From Arthrobacter pascens (GTDB lineage Bacteria > Actinomycetota > Actinomycetes > Actinomycetales > Micrococcaceae), in assembly GCF_030815585.1 (NCBI RefSeq), contig NZ_JAUSWY010000001.1, positions 2,728,001 to 2,792,000 of the forward strand: a DNA stretch of 64,000 bases. Reading direction: 5' to 3'. Position 1 is the stretch's first letter, and every line of letters begins with the position of its first letter. Below are positions 9,657 to 30,236 of the stretch, one piece after another. The notes beneath the pieces are model-generated. The model was not told the origin of the DNA. It made no database searches and was given only the letters and a program-made list of their open reading frames with translations. The position numbers and the translations under genes were made by a program.

Positions 9657-11498
9657 CTAGTCTTCCCGGGTCTCGGAGTGATCCCCTGCGGCCGGGTCTT
9701 CGCTGTGTGAACCCTCGCCGGAGTCCGACTCCCCGGCTTCCGATATGTTAACTTCCGTTTCATCAACTTCGATTTCGTCGGCTTCCACGGAGTCCTCATC
9801 CGACTCTGCGTCGTCCGACTCAAAGTAGTCGGATTCCGCATCATCAATGGCTGCGTCCACGCTTCCGCTGGGCTCCGGAGCTGTGCCTTGTGCGGCAGCT
9901 TCGGTGCTGACGGCCGCCGCGGTGGGAGTGTTTGATTCAGTGCCTCCGGCGGCCCGGTCGAGAAGACGGCGGCGCTGCGCTTCCTCGCGGGCTTCCTCTT
10001 CCTCATCCCAGCCCAGGTCGACGATGTCCGGTTCTTCGTCCACACCCAGGCCCAAAGCGTTTTCAGCCACCACGGCCTGCTTCTGCCACTTGGCTGCTTC
10101 AGCCTCACGCCCTACTGCAGAGAGGGCATTGGCATAGGCACGGAAAAGCCTGGGGCTGTAAGAAAAGGCCCGGTTGATGTCCAGCTGCGTGATTTCCAGT
10201 TCTGCCACGGCCGCGTCCAACTGGCCAAGGTCGGTGCGTGCTCCGGCCGCCACAATGGCCAGCTCGGCCTTGCCCGGTGCATCCAGGTCCTTGGCTTCCT
10301 CGGAGCGCACTACGTCAAGGGCGCGGTCCGGCCGGCCGAGGCCGCGTTCGCAGTCCGCCATCACTGGCAAGTGGACGTTTGAGCCGCTGATCCGGCGGTA
10401 TGTCCGGAATTCCCTCAGTGCTTCGCCGTAATGTCCTGCGGCATAGGCTGTCAGGCCCACCGCTTCGCGGACTGCGGCAAGCCTGCCGCCTCGCCGGCTG
10501 GCAGCAAGGGCATGCTGGAAGGCAAGCTCCGGCTCGTCGTCGATCAGCCGGCCGGCCATCACCAGGTGGCGGGCCACCCACTCGGCACTCTTGTCTTCGA
10601 GGGTCTTGATCTGGTGCTGCGTGGCGCGGTCAAGCTCCTTGCCCGTGACGTCTTCATCGATCTCAGGGGAGCGTTCGCGGTCAGGTCGGTTGGCGCTGCG
10701 GAGATCGCGGGCGTTCGGAACACGGGCCGGACGGTCTTCCGGACGGTCCCGGCCGAACTGGCGGGGACCGGAGTCGCCACGGTCGAAGCTCCGCGGTGCC
10801 CTGTCCTGGCGGTCGCCAAACGGCTTCCGGTTGCCGCCGCCGGAGAAGCTGCGGCGTTCGCTGTCACCTTCACGACGCGGACGATCACCATAAGGCTTGT
10901 TCTCCCGGTCGCCATAAGGCTTCCGCTCACCGCCGCTGTAGGGCTTCCGCTCACCGGAACCGCCACCGCTGTAGGGCTTCCGCTCACCGGAACCGAAACT
11001 GCGGCGTTCGCCGTCACCTTCACGACGCGGACGATCACCATAAGGCTTTTTCTCACGGTCACCGTAAGGAGGTTTACGGTCGCGGTCGCCGAAGGGAGGC
11101 TTACGGTCGCGGTCACCGAAGGGCTTGCGCTCACCACCGGCACCGCTGTAGGGCTTCCGCTCACCGGAACCGCCGCCGCTGTAGGGCTTCCGCTCACCGG
11201 AACCGAAACTGCGGCGTTCGCCGTCACCATCACGACGCGGACGATCACCATATGGCTTGTTCTCACGGTCACCGTAAGGAGGTTTACGGTCCGGGTCACC
11301 GAAAGGCTTCCGCTCACCACCGGCACCGCCGCCGCTGTAAGGCTTCCGCTCACCGGAACCCGGAGCGCGGCGTGGACCATCGGCGCTGTCGCGGTTCTCC
11401 TTCGAACGGAATCCTCGGGGTTCTCCGCCCGAGTTGTTCGTGCCGCGGAAAGGGCCGCGGTCTTTTCCGTCGCGGTTGCCGCCATTGTGCTCAGCCAT
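9657..11498 (-). CDS. TPR-type protein with Arg/Gly/Lys-rich repeat domain and acidic tail
   Basis: A 613-residue protein with three parts. Residues about 5-235 are low complexity: repeated GERKPYSGGG, GDRDRKPPFG and GDRPRREGDGERRSFGSG units, strongly basic and probably disordered. Residues about 286-478 form helical TPR-like repeats (ELAFQHALAASRRGGRLAAVREA, HYGEALREFRTYRRI, GRPDRALDVV, AVGREAEAAKWQKQA). From about 480 the tail is very acidic. ATG 11498 has a strong AGGAGG 7 bases upstream. A TPR gene occupies this position in the mycobacterial cluster (Rv1691). RGG/RKP-rich domains of this kind commonly bind RNA, so an RNA- or ribosome-linked role is possible but only inferred. Confidence 0.8.
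   Translation of the reverse strand: MAEHNGGNRDGKDRGPFRGTNNSGGEPRGFRSKENRDSADGPRRAPGSGERKPYSGGGAGGERKPFGDPDRKPPYGDRENKPYGDRPRRDGDGERRSFGSGERKPYSGGGSGERKPYSGAGGERKPFGDRDRKPPFGDRDRKPPYGDREKKPYGDRPRREGDGERRSFGSGERKPYSGGGSGERKPYSGGERKPYGDRENKPYGDRPRREGDSERRSFSGGGNRKPFGDRQDRAPRSFDRGDSGPRQFGRDRPEDRPARVPNARDLRSANRPDRERSPEIDEDVTGKELDRATQHQIKTLEDKSAEWVARHLVMAGRLIDDEPELAFQHALAASRRGGRLAAVREAVGLTAYAAGHYGEALREFRTYRRISGSNVHLPVMADCERGLGRPDRALDVVRSEEAKDLDAPGKAELAIVAAGARTDLGQLDAAVAELEITQLDINRAFSYSPRLFRAYANALSAVGREAEAAKWQKQAVVAENALGLGVDEEPDIVDLGWDEEEEAREEAQRRRLLDRAAGGTESNTPTAAAVSTEAAAQGTAPEPSGSVDAAIDDAESDYFESDDAESDEDSVEADEIEVDETEVNISEAGESDSGEGSHSEDPAAGDHSETRED
10790..11400 (-). repeat. in-frame DNA repeats inside the TPR gene
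   Basis: Tandem and interspersed copies of short units such as TAGGGCTTCCGCTCACCGG and ACGGTCACCGTAAGG (plus-strand reading) encode the GERKPYSGGG and GDREKKPYG blocks. Several 60-120 base stretches are nearly identical, for example around 10970-11060 and 11190-11280. Unit number is likely to vary between strains by slippage or recombination. All repeats keep the reading frame. Confidence 0.75.
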
Positions 11499-11694
11499 GT
11501 GGGATTCCTCCTGTTGTGAGCCGACCACTGGCGCAATCGCAGCCGCTCGTATCCGTGTTTCGTTTTACTACGCAACCCGAAATCAAGCGCTTCGAAGTCC
11601 GTACATCTCAATCAATTCTAGGCGAGAGCCCCATCCACGAGGGACAGAGATGCCCATTGAGGCCGCAGTCGTGGGAATCTTCACACTCCAGGCC

Positions 11695-11750
11695 AAACGC
11701 TCTCTCACTTGCTGCACGTTTTGGGGTGACGCTCTCGCATTTGCTGCGGG
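11695..11750 (+). repeat. 32-bp phased ACGCTCTC repeats, left part of array A
   Basis: Two units of the ACGCTCTC(T/G)CA(C/T)TTGCTGC repeat, with ACGC starting at 11697 and 11729, exactly 32 bases apart. They are the left end of an array that the IS element split. The right end resumes at 13143. Confidence 0.85.
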
Positions 11751-11753
11751 GTT
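11746..11753. repeat. left target-site duplication of the IS element
   Basis: GCGGGGTT directly outside the left terminal inverted repeat, repeated exactly at 13135-13142. Eight bases is the length expected for the IS256 family. Confidence 0.92.
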
Positions 11754-11780
11754 GGGACTGTCTGAATAACGGTGTGTGGG
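11754..11780 (+). repeat. IS left terminal inverted repeat
   Basis: Begins GGGACTGTCTGAATAACGG and matches the reverse complement of 13108-13134 at 24 of 27 positions; differences are at positions 10, 13 and 14 from the tip. Beyond position 27 both ends continue with TCCGGCC after one extra G on the left. Confidence 0.9.
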
Positions 11781-11808
11781 GTCCGGCCTGATCCGAAAGG
11801 AGATGGCC

Positions 11809-13092
11809 GTGTCAGATTCCACGACCGAGATGACAGGGGTGATGATCGATCCTGTGACGGGAGAGATCATCGATCAGAAGGAGCTTGCGGAGCGGTTGCT
11901 CGCGCAGGCCAAGGAACAGGGTGTGAGCCTGGTAGGCCCGGGTGGGCTGCTGAACCAGCTCACGAGGAATGTGCTGGAGACCGCGCTGGAAGCGGAGCTG
12001 ACCGAGCACCTCGGGCACGAGCATGGCCAGAGACCGATCGCAGCCAACATGCGCAACGGCACCAGGTCAAAGACCGTGCTGACCGAGATCGGCCCGGTCG
12101 AGATCGAGGTGCCCCGGGATCGGGACGGCTCGTTCGAGCCGGTGATCGTGCCCAAACGGAAACGGCGTCTGGACGGAATCGACCAGATCGTGCTCTCGCT
12201 GTCCGCCCGGGGGCTGACCACGGGGGAAATCGCCGCGCACTTCGAAGAGGTCTACGGGGCCAAGGTCTCCAAAGACACCATCAGCCGCATCACGGAGAAG
12301 GTCGCCGGGGAACTGGCCCAATGGTCGGCCCGGCCTTTGGATCCGATCTACCCGGTGCTCTTCGTTGACGCGGTCGTGGTCAAGGTCCGTGACGGGCAGG
12401 TGCGCAACACCCCGTTCTATGTCGTCATGGGGGTCACCACAAGTGGTGAGCGGGAGATCCTGGGCATCTGGGCAGGCGACGGCGGCGAGGGTGCACGGTT
12501 CTGGCTGCAGGTCTTCTCCGAGCTGAAGAACCGGGGCGTTGAAGATGTGTTGATCGCCGTCTTTGACGGGCTCAAAGGCCTGCCGGAGGCGATCACGACC
12601 ACGTGGGAGCGAACGGTGGTGCAGCAGTGCGTCGTGCACCTGATACGCAACAGCTTCCGCTACGCCGGACGCCAGCACCGCGACGGCATCGTCAAGGCGC
12701 TCAAGCCCGTCTACACGGCCCCGTCAGAGCAGGCGGCGAAGGACCGGTTCGCCGAGTTCACGGCCGAATGGGGCCAGCGATATCCGGCAATCGTGCGGCT
12801 CTGGGAGTCCTCCTGGGCTGAGTTCGTGCCATTCCTGGAGTACGACGTGGAGATCCGCCGGGTGATCTGCACAACGAACGCGATCGAGTCGATCAACGCC
12901 CGCTACAGAAGGGCTGTGAGGGCCCGCGGGCACTTTCCGAACGAGGCCGCGGCCCTGAAATGCCTGTATCTGGTCACCAGATCTCTTGATCCAACCGGCG
13001 GCGGCCGGGCACGCTGGGTAATGAGGTGGAAGCCTGCGCTGAACGCGTTCGCGATTACCTTCGCCGGTCGGTTCGAAAGAACCACTCACTAA
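11809..13092 (+). CDS. IS256-family transposase
   Basis: A 427-residue mutator-type DDE transposase. The first Asp is in VLFVDAVVVKVRD, the second in VLIAVFDGLKGLP, and the catalytic Glu in TTNAIESINARYRR; CVVHLIRNSF between them is the family signature. The N-terminal half has helix-turn-helix regions (LTTGEIAAHFEEVYG, VSKDTISRI) that bind the ends. GTG 11809 was chosen because AAAGGAG lies 6 bases upstream; an in-frame ATG at 11803 is only one base from that site, which is too close. The gene is unbroken and ends 15 bases before the right inverted repeat. Confidence 0.93.
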   Translation: MSDSTTEMTGVMIDPVTGEIIDQKELAERLLAQAKEQGVSLVGPGGLLNQLTRNVLETALEAELTEHLGHEHGQRPIAANMRNGTRSKTVLTEIGPVEIEVPRDRDGSFEPVIVPKRKRRLDGIDQIVLSLSARGLTTGEIAAHFEEVYGAKVSKDTISRITEKVAGELAQWSARPLDPIYPVLFVDAVVVKVRDGQVRNTPFYVVMGVTTSGEREILGIWAGDGGEGARFWLQVFSELKNRGVEDVLIAVFDGLKGLPEAITTTWERTVVQQCVVHLIRNSFRYAGRQHRDGIVKALKPVYTAPSEQAAKDRFAEFTAEWGQRYPAIVRLWESSWAEFVPFLEYDVEIRRVICTTNAIESINARYRRAVRARGHFPNEAAALKCLYLVTRSLDPTGGGRARWVMRWKPALNAFAITFAGRFERTTH

Positions 13093-13107
13093 TGAAAACC
13101 GGCCGGA

Positions 13108-13134
13108 CCCACACACCGTTTATCGGACAGTCCC
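13108..13134 (-). repeat. IS right terminal inverted repeat
   Basis: Reverse complement begins GGGACTGTCCGATAAACGG, matching the left end. It lies just 3' of the transposase stop. Confidence 0.9.
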
Positions 13135-13142
13135 GCGGGGTT
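13135..13142. repeat. right target-site duplication of the IS element
   Basis: GCGGGGTT, identical to 11746-11753. Confidence 0.92.
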
Positions 13143-13460
13143 TTGGGTGACGCTCTCGCATTTGCTGCGGGGTTTTGGGTGACGCTCTCGCATTTCTGGG
13201 TGCGACGGCGGTGCCGGGGTGTGGGGGCAAGGGGCCGGGCCGGTTTGCTGCAGGGTTTGGGGGAGGGTTGCCTGTTCTTCTGCAGGAACTGAGAGAGCGT
13301 TGCCTGTTCTTCTGCAGGAACTGAGAGAGCGTTGCCTGTTCTTCTGCAGGAACTGAGAGAGCGTTGCCTGTTCTTCTGCAGGAACTGAGAGAGCGTTGCG
13401 TGGTCTTCTGCAGGAACTGAGAGAGGGGTGCGTGGTCTTTTGCTGGAGGTGAGAGGGGGT
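13143..13460. repeat. 32-bp phased repeats, right part of array A (forward then inverted units)
   Basis: This gene-free stretch holds the rest of the array. Two forward units have ACGCTCTC starting at 13150 and 13182. After a G-rich gap, a run of inverted units (CTGCAGGAACTGAGAGAGCGTT) follows, with the GCGT end at 13300, 13332, 13364 and 13396. Decayed units end near 13268, 13428 and 13460. Every step is 32 bases. The four good inverted units are almost identical. There are no spacers or cas genes, so it is not CRISPR. It lies between the IS and the terminator of the rrn operon. Confidence 0.88.
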
Positions 13461-13479
13461 TTGGGGTTTTTTAAATGGG

Positions 13480-13508
13480 TCAGGCCCCAACCTGTGGTTG
13501 GGGCCTGA
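13480..13508 (-). terminator. rrn operon terminator hairpin
   Basis: Perfect 13-bp stem: TCAGGCCCCAACC (13480-13492) and its complement (13496-13508) around a 3-base loop. It lies 12 bases beyond the 3' end of 5S rRNA on the transcribed strand. The U-tract is weak (CCCATTTAAAA on the minus strand). No alternative gene end is nearby. Confidence 0.8.
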
Positions 13509-13520
13509 GCCTTAATGTGT

Positions 13521-13638
13521 GTCCGGCGGTGACCTACTCTCCCACACCCTCCCGGGTGCAGTACCATCGGCGCTGTGGGTCTTAGCTTCCGGGTTCGGAA
13601 TGGGACCGGGCGTTTCCCCCACGCTATGACCGCCGTAA
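13521..13638 (-). rRNA. rrf: 5S ribosomal RNA
   Basis: The minus strand reads GTTACGGCGGTCATAGCG at the 5' end, CCCGGTCCCATTCCGAACC in loop B/C, and ends GTCACCGCCGGAC, all typical of actinobacterial 5S. The terminal stem GGCGGT/ACCGCC closes. Length about 118. The ends are estimated to within a few bases. Confidence 0.95.
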
Positions 13639-13865
13639 CCCTTGTACCCGGCACGCGCCCCGGTGTGGGGGTGGTGTGGGAAGTCTGGTTACAACCTGTC
13701 CCCGCAGCTTGTGTGGTGCGGGTGTGGTGTTGTTTATTCAGTTGTGTTCTCAAGCAACGGGTTTGTTGGTTGGGAACCACATAGTGGACGCAAGCAGTCT
13801 TGTTATCTTTTTACCGCCCCTGGGTGTAAACCCCTTTTGAATGGGTTTACAGGGGTGGTGTGTGG
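13639..13865 (-). other. 23S-5S internal transcribed spacer
   Basis: About 227 bases without a gene. It holds the 3' half of the 23S processing stem (13779-13796), a degenerate copy of the GTTCTCAAACAAC box (13747-13758, GTTCTCAAGCAAC-like) and a hairpin at about 13816-13856 made of TGTAAACCC and GGGTTTACA arms. No tRNA was seen. Confidence 0.75.
13779..13796 (-). other. 3' arm of the 23S rRNA processing stem
   Basis: ACATAGTGGACGCAAGCA on the plus strand is the reverse complement, with one difference that pairs as G-U in RNA, of 17126-17143 on the other side of 23S. In the precursor RNA the two arms would form an 18-bp helix bringing the 23S ends together, the usual RNase III substrate. Confidence 0.8.
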
Positions 13866-27413: not shown

Positions 27414-27452
27414 GGCGACATGCTAGCTGGAAGCGTTCCGCGGTTAACGCAC

Positions 27453-27554
27453 AACGCTCTCTCAGTTGTTGCATGAAAATCGGCAACGCTCTCTCACTTT
27501 CTCGAGGAAAGTGAGAGAGCGTTGGCCAAAATGATGCAAGAACTGAGAGAGCGT
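27453..27554. repeat. 32-bp phased inverted repeat array B
   Basis: Two forward units (ACGC starting at 27454 and 27486) face two inverted units (GCGT ending at 27522 and 27554). Both pairs are spaced 32 bases. The inner pair forms a perfect 18-bp inverted repeat (27484-27501 with 27507-27524) around TCGAG. The outer pair matches over 21 bases with one difference. The array lies between the stop of argH and the start of pdxH, 8 bases from the argH stop, in a gap of 148 bases. It could act as a transcription terminator for argH, as a protein-binding array, or both. Confidence 0.9.
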
Positions 27555-27561
27555 GCGGCTG

Positions 27562-30236
<2,675 letters not shown>

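Follow-up and report, generated by a model that had tools for sequence, protein, structure and literature searches.

We found by computation a family of modular repeat arrays in a 64,000-nucleotide stretch of the Arthrobacter pascens genome (the window) and in related genomes. The analysis shows its architecture, its position close behind stop codons with units reading along the gene, compensatory change in an inner dyad, conservation of the unit cores between species and a core triplet that depends on lineage. Our leading reading, held tentatively, is that of a lineage-specific modular gene-end element in which an inner stem-loop would end transcription and outer phased units would be sites for a putative factor; we infer both the termination function and the existence of the factor. 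The arrays account for a conserved intergenic repeat family and could serve as insulators in Arthrobacter genetics. Should they terminate transcription, they would be a gene-end signal of modular build, specific to the lineage. Should a protein read them, that protein would be a so far unrecognised sequence-specific factor, with a core triplet that varies from one related species to another, and the family would offer a natural series for the co-change of a binding protein and dozens of genomic sites.

An array beyond the rrn operon and its interruption by an insertion sequence

The earlier note had placed eleven repeat units on a 32-base register just past the rrn operon. When the window sequence was rechecked, all eleven coordinates proved correct, and the array was found beyond the 3' end of the 5S rRNA. 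The window contains 14 exact matches to ACGCTCTC against 2.36 expected, a number reached in 0 of 100 shuffles, and seven pairs of matches are exactly 32 bp apart, compared with a maximum of zero across 200 first-order Markov windows, so that the register is upheld. The region is organized as follows.

11697–11753, + strand: left part of the forward half, ahead of the insertion; units with exact ACGCTCTC start at 11697 and at 11729, the latter truncated after 25 bp
11754–13134, + strand: IS256-family insertion sequence, 1381 bp with 27-bp inverted ends, by which the array is split
11776–13092: IS256-family transposase, 438 aa (Pfam PF00872, 410 bits; NCBIfam NF033543 IS256, 386 bits)
13135–13213, + strand: right part of the forward half, past the insertion; duplication copy at 13135–13142, units with exact ACGCTCTC start at 13150 and 13182
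13237–13460, − strand: inverted half of the array; intact units with exact ACGCTCTC end at 13300, 13332, 13364 and 13396, and degenerate units, their register unchanged, end at 13268, 13428 and 13460 (ACCCTCCC, CCCCTCTC and ACCCCCTC)
13477–13511, − strand: separate stem-loop, also recovered by folding, whose two 16-bp arms show 94% complementarity; it lies between array and 5S gene
13521–13637, − strand: 5S rRNA, last gene of the rrn operon

The insertion is flanked by an 8-bp target duplication, GCGGGGTT (copies at 11746–11753 and 13135–13142). The 1421-bp jump from 11729 to 13150 is the sum of the 1381-bp insertion, the 8-bp duplication and the 32 bp left once both are removed. Excision thus restores a register of 32, 32, 32, indicating that the four forward units once formed one array. 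Four full-length copies of the insertion are present in the genome (the other three at G000:C1:538729–540109, 3474334–3475714 and 4703190–4704570), and their 100% identity suggests that the element was probably active recently. The 8-bp target duplication accompanies three of the four copies; none was found for the copy at 538729. Among the flanks of the four, only the window copy sits within an array, and a second copy begins 27 bp past the end of another array.

The two halves of the rrn array face one another across 119 bp (13182 to 13300), and they lie behind the separate stem-loop at 13477–13511, which is possibly the rrn terminator; for these two reasons the array would provide at most a second stop there. 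A consensus terminator scan of 11500–13700 returned three sites against 1.8 expected, and neither the array centre nor the stem-loop at 13477–13511 was among them. The rrn array is an atypical member of the family, and a second element of the window, at 27454–27554 behind argH, is cleaner.

A genome-wide family in an exact 32-bp register

The conserved unit is longer than the CTCTC that the earlier note took for the core: it reads ACGCTCTCTCAC-TT-NN-TGC, and a linker of 13 free bp comes after it, centred on an A/T tract. With up to two mismatches allowed, this 19-base unit has 106 matches in the 4.73-Mb genome against three for the reversed pattern. Arrays were found in at least 23 stretches of this genome (around the match clusters listed), and adjacency to rrn is just one of their many placements. 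The periodicity, whose absence elsewhere the earlier note had named as a refutation, recurs beyond the window, genome- and genus-wide: of 481 same-strand neighbours within 150 bp at loci of this genome and its relatives, 432 have a spacing of exactly 32 bp.

The facing units of the inner pair fall into length classes. Measured inclusively (n = 127), the pair spans 37 bp in 57 cases, 26–30 bp in 28, 47–49 bp in 10 and 58–59 bp in 7; the remaining 25 lengths are scattered, four of them at 34, 41, 42 and 44 bp. In a stricter set of 122, for which outer units were demanded on both sides and all lengths from 24 to 59 bp were allowed, 65 pairs were at 37 bp, 25 at 26–30, 19 at 58–59, 11 at 47–49, and one each at 40 and 44. 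Some members of the 58–59 class are visibly a 26–27-bp dyad plus one degenerate 32-bp unit. The classes step by roughly one helical turn. The 32-bp register itself is firm, and a helical phasing between the two halves is suggestive, since each length class may descend from few ancestors.

Viral contigs gave 0 matches to a two-unit pattern and phages 0 matches to one 101-bp element, and plasmids gave two weak partial matches, both on Arthrobacter sp. StoSoilB13 replicons of 1.0 and 1.35 Mb; an origin as a phage or plasmid element was therefore rejected.

Four arrays, L031, L043, L051 and L053 (G000:C1 near 5946, 3618500, 4725200 and 2741300), have near-identical linkers, GGGGTTTTGGGTG and AGAAGAACAGGCA, unlike those of other loci. 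This likeness suggests homogenisation; the one in the window is the array behind rrn. Of the strong clusters listed, the window's own two loci are the sole ones inside the 1.7 Mb of G000:C1:1.91–3.59 Mb. No open frame of 300 codons marking dnaA was found in the first 3.5 kb of the contig.

Most arrays lie close behind stop codons and read along the gene

The gene neighbours of 173 distinct arrays of at least two units were tandem in 80 cases, convergent in 79 and divergent in 14. Other gaps of at least 40 bp at the same loci, obtained by subtraction, were convergent in about 50, tandem in about 220 and divergent in about 117; the chi-square p of 8.5e-19 is too small, because the loci were selected through the repeat, the genes were called by our own codon-usage script and orthologous arrays were counted. 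For 159 arrays with a gene ending towards them, the nearest stop lay at a median of 14 bp, and 103 of these arrays were between −10 and 30 bp from it. Of 238 units lying first behind a stop codon, 211 had the same sense as the gene, and within 30 bp of the stop 121 of 127 did.

As to orientation, 111 of the 173 arrays are strictly facing (>..<), 60 are one-sided and 2 are mixed. One-sided arrays in tandem settings agreed with the sense of the gene in 26 cases and opposed it in 9. Ten genes preceding arrays were scanned and encode ordinary metabolic, regulatory, transport and translation functions (e.g. methionyl-tRNA synthetase, ThiF).

The inner dyad and the outer units evolve under two regimes

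Where both arms of the inner dyad depart from the framework, the departures were complementary in 40 of 44 cases, compared with a mean of 5.5 and a maximum of 14 in 2000 shuffles; this count required at least six of nine framework bases on both arms, by which strongly decayed dyads were removed. The triplet was equal on both arms in 100 of 122 elements (shuffled mean 65.9), the effective number of dyads being below 122 as the elements are partly orthologous. Linker bases 28–31, which adjoin the dyad, also match between the two sides (z 3.4 to 6.2). A first dyad count, in which 184 of 187 candidates were kept and 47 of 83 double departures were complementary (shuffled mean 29.7, maximum 56), was dropped for off-register placements.

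Departures from the framework numbered 69 of 2196 cells in the outer units and 163 in the inner ones. Compensatory change inside and few departures outside indicate stem-like behaviour of the centre, whereas the flanks behave as conserved sequence. Compensatory change could also arise by template-switching mutation between the arms without selection.

The earlier note had proposed protein-binding sites that share one face of the DNA. The 32-bp register, the stable cores and the stepped inner lengths fit this proposal. The note missed the insertion sequence, the position right behind stops and the inner dyad, whose evolution resembles that of a base-paired stem. One rival explanation is an array acting at the level of DNA, RNA playing no part: its units would be sites for a nucleoid, topology or transcription-roadblock protein at gene ends, and the inner pair would be the meeting point of two opposed arrays. 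It accommodates the exact register (432 of 481), the inner lengths stepped by about one helical turn, the one-sided form of 60 of 173 arrays, the 69 departures in 2196 outer cells and the lineage-dependent triplet. Binding to double-stranded DNA does not, however, call for the compensation seen within the inner dyad; few ancestors may underlie each of the three length classes, and some genomes mix two triplets. We regard this explanation as possible, though doubtful.

Action in the message is a further explanation. The repeated CUCUCUCAC and the long hairpin would then form a 3'-end element of the RNA (stability, RNase III or an RNA-binding protein), and the DNA spacing would be functionless. 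The sense orientation behind stops (211 of 238), the mainly gene-sense one-sided tandem arrays (26 vs 9), the very stable fold of the argH element and the compensatory change in the dyad all speak for it. The exact 32-base spacing and the stepped distances, however, have no evident reason in single-stranded RNA, and on the sense strand G.U was not favoured over A.C after cluster reduction (2 vs 2). We consider this explanation very unlikely. A strand bias of G.U over A.C had been seen in the raw counts (16 vs 8) and was rejected at 2 vs 2 with one member per cluster.

In the gene-end reading that we prefer, the inner inverted pair (mostly 26–30, 37 or 47–49 bp) would fold as a strong stem-loop in the transcript and most likely end, or close off, transcripts arriving from either side. 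The further units, following outwards on each side at exactly 32 bp, or three helical turns, would most likely present one DNA face to a putative sequence-specific factor; we favour factor sites for these outer units because their sequence itself is kept. Such a factor would strengthen the stop. The placement and orientation behind stops, the compensatory change in the dyad and, at argH, the folds of array-free genomes and the conserved cores speak for this reading. The one-sided arrays (60 of 173) form no stem on their own, which counts against its stem-loop terminator part, as do the scan of 11500–13700, the absent U-tract rule, the three weak folds at argH, the possible template switching and the uneven retention at a trmH-like locus.

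A terminator with a sense-strand U-tract was considered and rejected: the raw tandem counts (TT 25, AA 4) included many argH orthologues, and the excess was gone at one vote per cluster. Among 18 tandem clusters, which were made with a crude threshold, the tract behind the dyad on the sense strand was T in 7 and A in 7, following no rule.

In 46 of the 61 elements that could be classified among the 122, the A/T tracts (linker positions 22–25) on the two sides of the centre shared a strand (shuffled 31.7, sd 4.1). This arrangement lends the element as a whole a polarity absent from its units, and it could limit the stem or prevent a long perfect palindrome.

Conservation of the element at the argH locus

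The second element of the window separates the 3' end of argH from the gene that follows.

27454–27554, − strand: second, compact element, 101 bp, two outer and two inner units, 37-bp inner dyad
27562–28968, − strand: argH-like gene (argininosuccinate lyase), named from a reading of its sequence alone

The stretch 27440–27580, which holds the element, has a predicted RNA fold of −87 kcal/mol (z −11.3). Among the 15 array-bearing genomes examined, 14 carry the element in the argH slot, two of them with another repeat in place of the outer unit nearest the gene; the exception, G004, has a different palindrome. Among 15 genomes without TCT-type arrays, 12 have no array at argH, and G011, G017 and G022 have the same architecture with an altered core. 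One of the 12 array-free slots had undetermined bases and was left out; of the 11 folded, eight reached z ≤ −1.8 (mononucleotide shuffles, within 110 bases of the stop) and three gave weak folds. It is as if array and plain stem-loop substitute for each other in this slot.

Comparison of 11 complete, orthologous argH elements bore out the earlier claim that bases outside the core drift. The mean pairwise mismatch was 0.05 in the outer cores and 0.09 in the inner cores, figures raised by the inclusion of G017, which is of CCG type, against 0.43 in the rest of the linker; the A/T tract stood at 0.29 and the two free bases at 0.60. Third codon positions of argH, taken as a yardstick, gave 0.37.

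On an argH tree of 31 genomes, the array trait required four changes, compared with 10.6 for shuffled labels (0 of 500 as low), indicating that inheritance prevails, accompanied by gains or losses. The picture was less stable at a trmH-like locus, where arrays were seen in G000, G058 and G077, a TCG-type array in G012, and degenerate units in G016, G020, G023 and G005; this series covers visible cases only, as no frame was obtained in 4 of 30 genomes and the wrong one is likely in several. The trmH-like array is kept in few genomes, and individual elements are not always retained.

Other repeats were observed at argH. Downstream of the gene in G004 and G005 (L218 and L234), another palindromic repeat family, GGTCTCGACAGGCTCGACCACCGG, has several copies in the array slot. 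A different repeat, like GGGGCCCACGTCCGCAGGGTTCCCTGGCCGAG, occupies the slot in G012, G015, G058 and G090 (L236, L215, L225 and L214), and in the last two genomes it stands where the outer unit nearest the gene would be.

The core triplet and the distribution of the family

The core has the form ACGC-NNN-CTCACTT, in which NNN is TCT in this genome and in most array-bearing ones. The triplet is TCC at 12 of the 14 places listed for G036, CCG at all nine places of G108, and mostly TCG at the places listed for G012, G045 and G106. Mixtures occur in G065 (TCG, CCG and GCG) and in G055 and G119 (GCG with CCG). The core triplet is thus lineage-dependent, although strict uniformity is absent.

These triplets enter another account of the arrays, a protein-dependent barrier at gene ends. 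A putative protein would coat the 32-bp-phased units along one DNA face and, with the central stem-loop, halt RNA polymerase from either side, much as TTF-I does at Sal boxes; its DNA specificity would have shifted several times in the genus (ACGC-TCT/TCC/TCG/CCG/GCG-CTCACTT), with most arrays following. As an interpretation of our analysis, we consider this barrier unlikely.

The TCT form is present in 46 of 121 genus genomes, patchily between species. The TTNNTGC form with any triplet was found in 53 of the 121, and a less strict form in 31 of the remaining 68, giving 84 of 121 with the architecture overall. In a family-wide draw of 197 genomes, which held 12 of the array genus, eight had the architecture, six from the same genus and two from one other genus. 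At least 113 stretches match in a named species collection, and each of the 80 listed bears an Arthrobacter, Pseudarthrobacter or Micrococcaceae title. Arthrobacter livingstonensis is named in a table row of PMC12306157.

Relation to known repeats and terminators

Among the papers listed in our searches of one open-access library, none described the array family; those matching ACGCTCTCTCAC dealt with Thalassospira microRNAs and pericytes. Its arrangement is BIME-like and its placement terminator-like, and we file it under extragenic palindromic repeats at gene ends.

Portions of PMC2817692 and PMC3116915 present REP/BIME and REPIN sequences as dispersed extragenic palindromic repeats, many of them behind genes, with opposed units in composites. 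REP and BIME repeats belong to enterobacteria and pseudomonads. The arrays resemble REP/BIME in being dispersed, extragenic, behind genes and built of opposed units (111 of 173 strictly >..<). They differ from REP, BIME and REPIN in that the unit is not itself palindromic, the register is fixed at 32 bp and the arrays converge. A REP unit, as defined in a part of PMC3733652, is a 20–40-bp palindrome with a GTAG or CGTC tag; by inspection ACGCTCTCTCACTTNNTGC is neither palindromic nor so tagged, and this identity was rejected. The RAYT-type Y1 transposase family PF01797 was detected in one of 121 genus genomes (G032), while a control was positive in 5 of 14 named genomes. Its absence from 120 of the 121, this genome included, makes a REPIN/RAYT origin unlikely.

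A selfish REP/BIME- or MITE-like repeat, tolerated behind genes because insertions are nearly harmless there, and uniform in its cores through copying and not through host use, would explain the many dispersed, intergenic, palindromic copies, the patchy distribution (TCT form in 46 of 121 genomes) and the occupation of the argH slot by other repeat families in some genomes. Linkers, however, vary between array copies while cores agree, which is unexpected from recent copying, and orthologous elements persist with conserved cores. PF01797 is found in just the one genus genome and not in this one. At the loci looked at, we noticed neither arrays on both sides of a transposase gene nor an autonomous parent of MITE type with the same ends. 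Such an origin seems distinctly improbable.

Like intrinsic bidirectional terminators, the arrays have a stem-loop near stops, often between convergent genes, with compensatory change; a GC-rich stem-loop behind the gene, a feature of intrinsic terminators, was found for the two-sided elements only. Unlike these terminators, the arrays have modular conserved outer units and follow no rule of a sense-strand U-tract.

ERIC, RUP and BOX are imperfect intergenic palindromes of about 100–130 bp with many copies. By this general description the array elements, likewise imperfect, intergenic, numerous and about 100 bp long, are similar; they are set apart, again by description, through growth in 32-bp modules and a lineage-dependent core triplet. 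PMC3049150 is a paper on BOX and RUP. On a roadblock reading, the arrays would be comparable to TTF-I and its Sal-box, both being oriented sites behind transcription units, rRNA genes included. The Sal-box sites are oriented, repeated and placed behind the 3' ends of eukaryotic rRNA genes. The arrays differ in being bacterial, behind many genes and facing both ways, and the analogy is one of mode of action, with no kinship implied. A CRISPR array consists of direct repeats parted by unique spacers of near-equal length; this identity was rejected, as the free linkers measure just about 13 bp and the units are turned towards one another.

The window also encodes, at 9657–11528 on the − strand, a 623-aa protein with an N-terminal half made up of repeats in degenerate form, GERKPYSGG and YGDRENKPYGDRPRR among them; the corresponding repeats in the DNA lie at 11000–11373.
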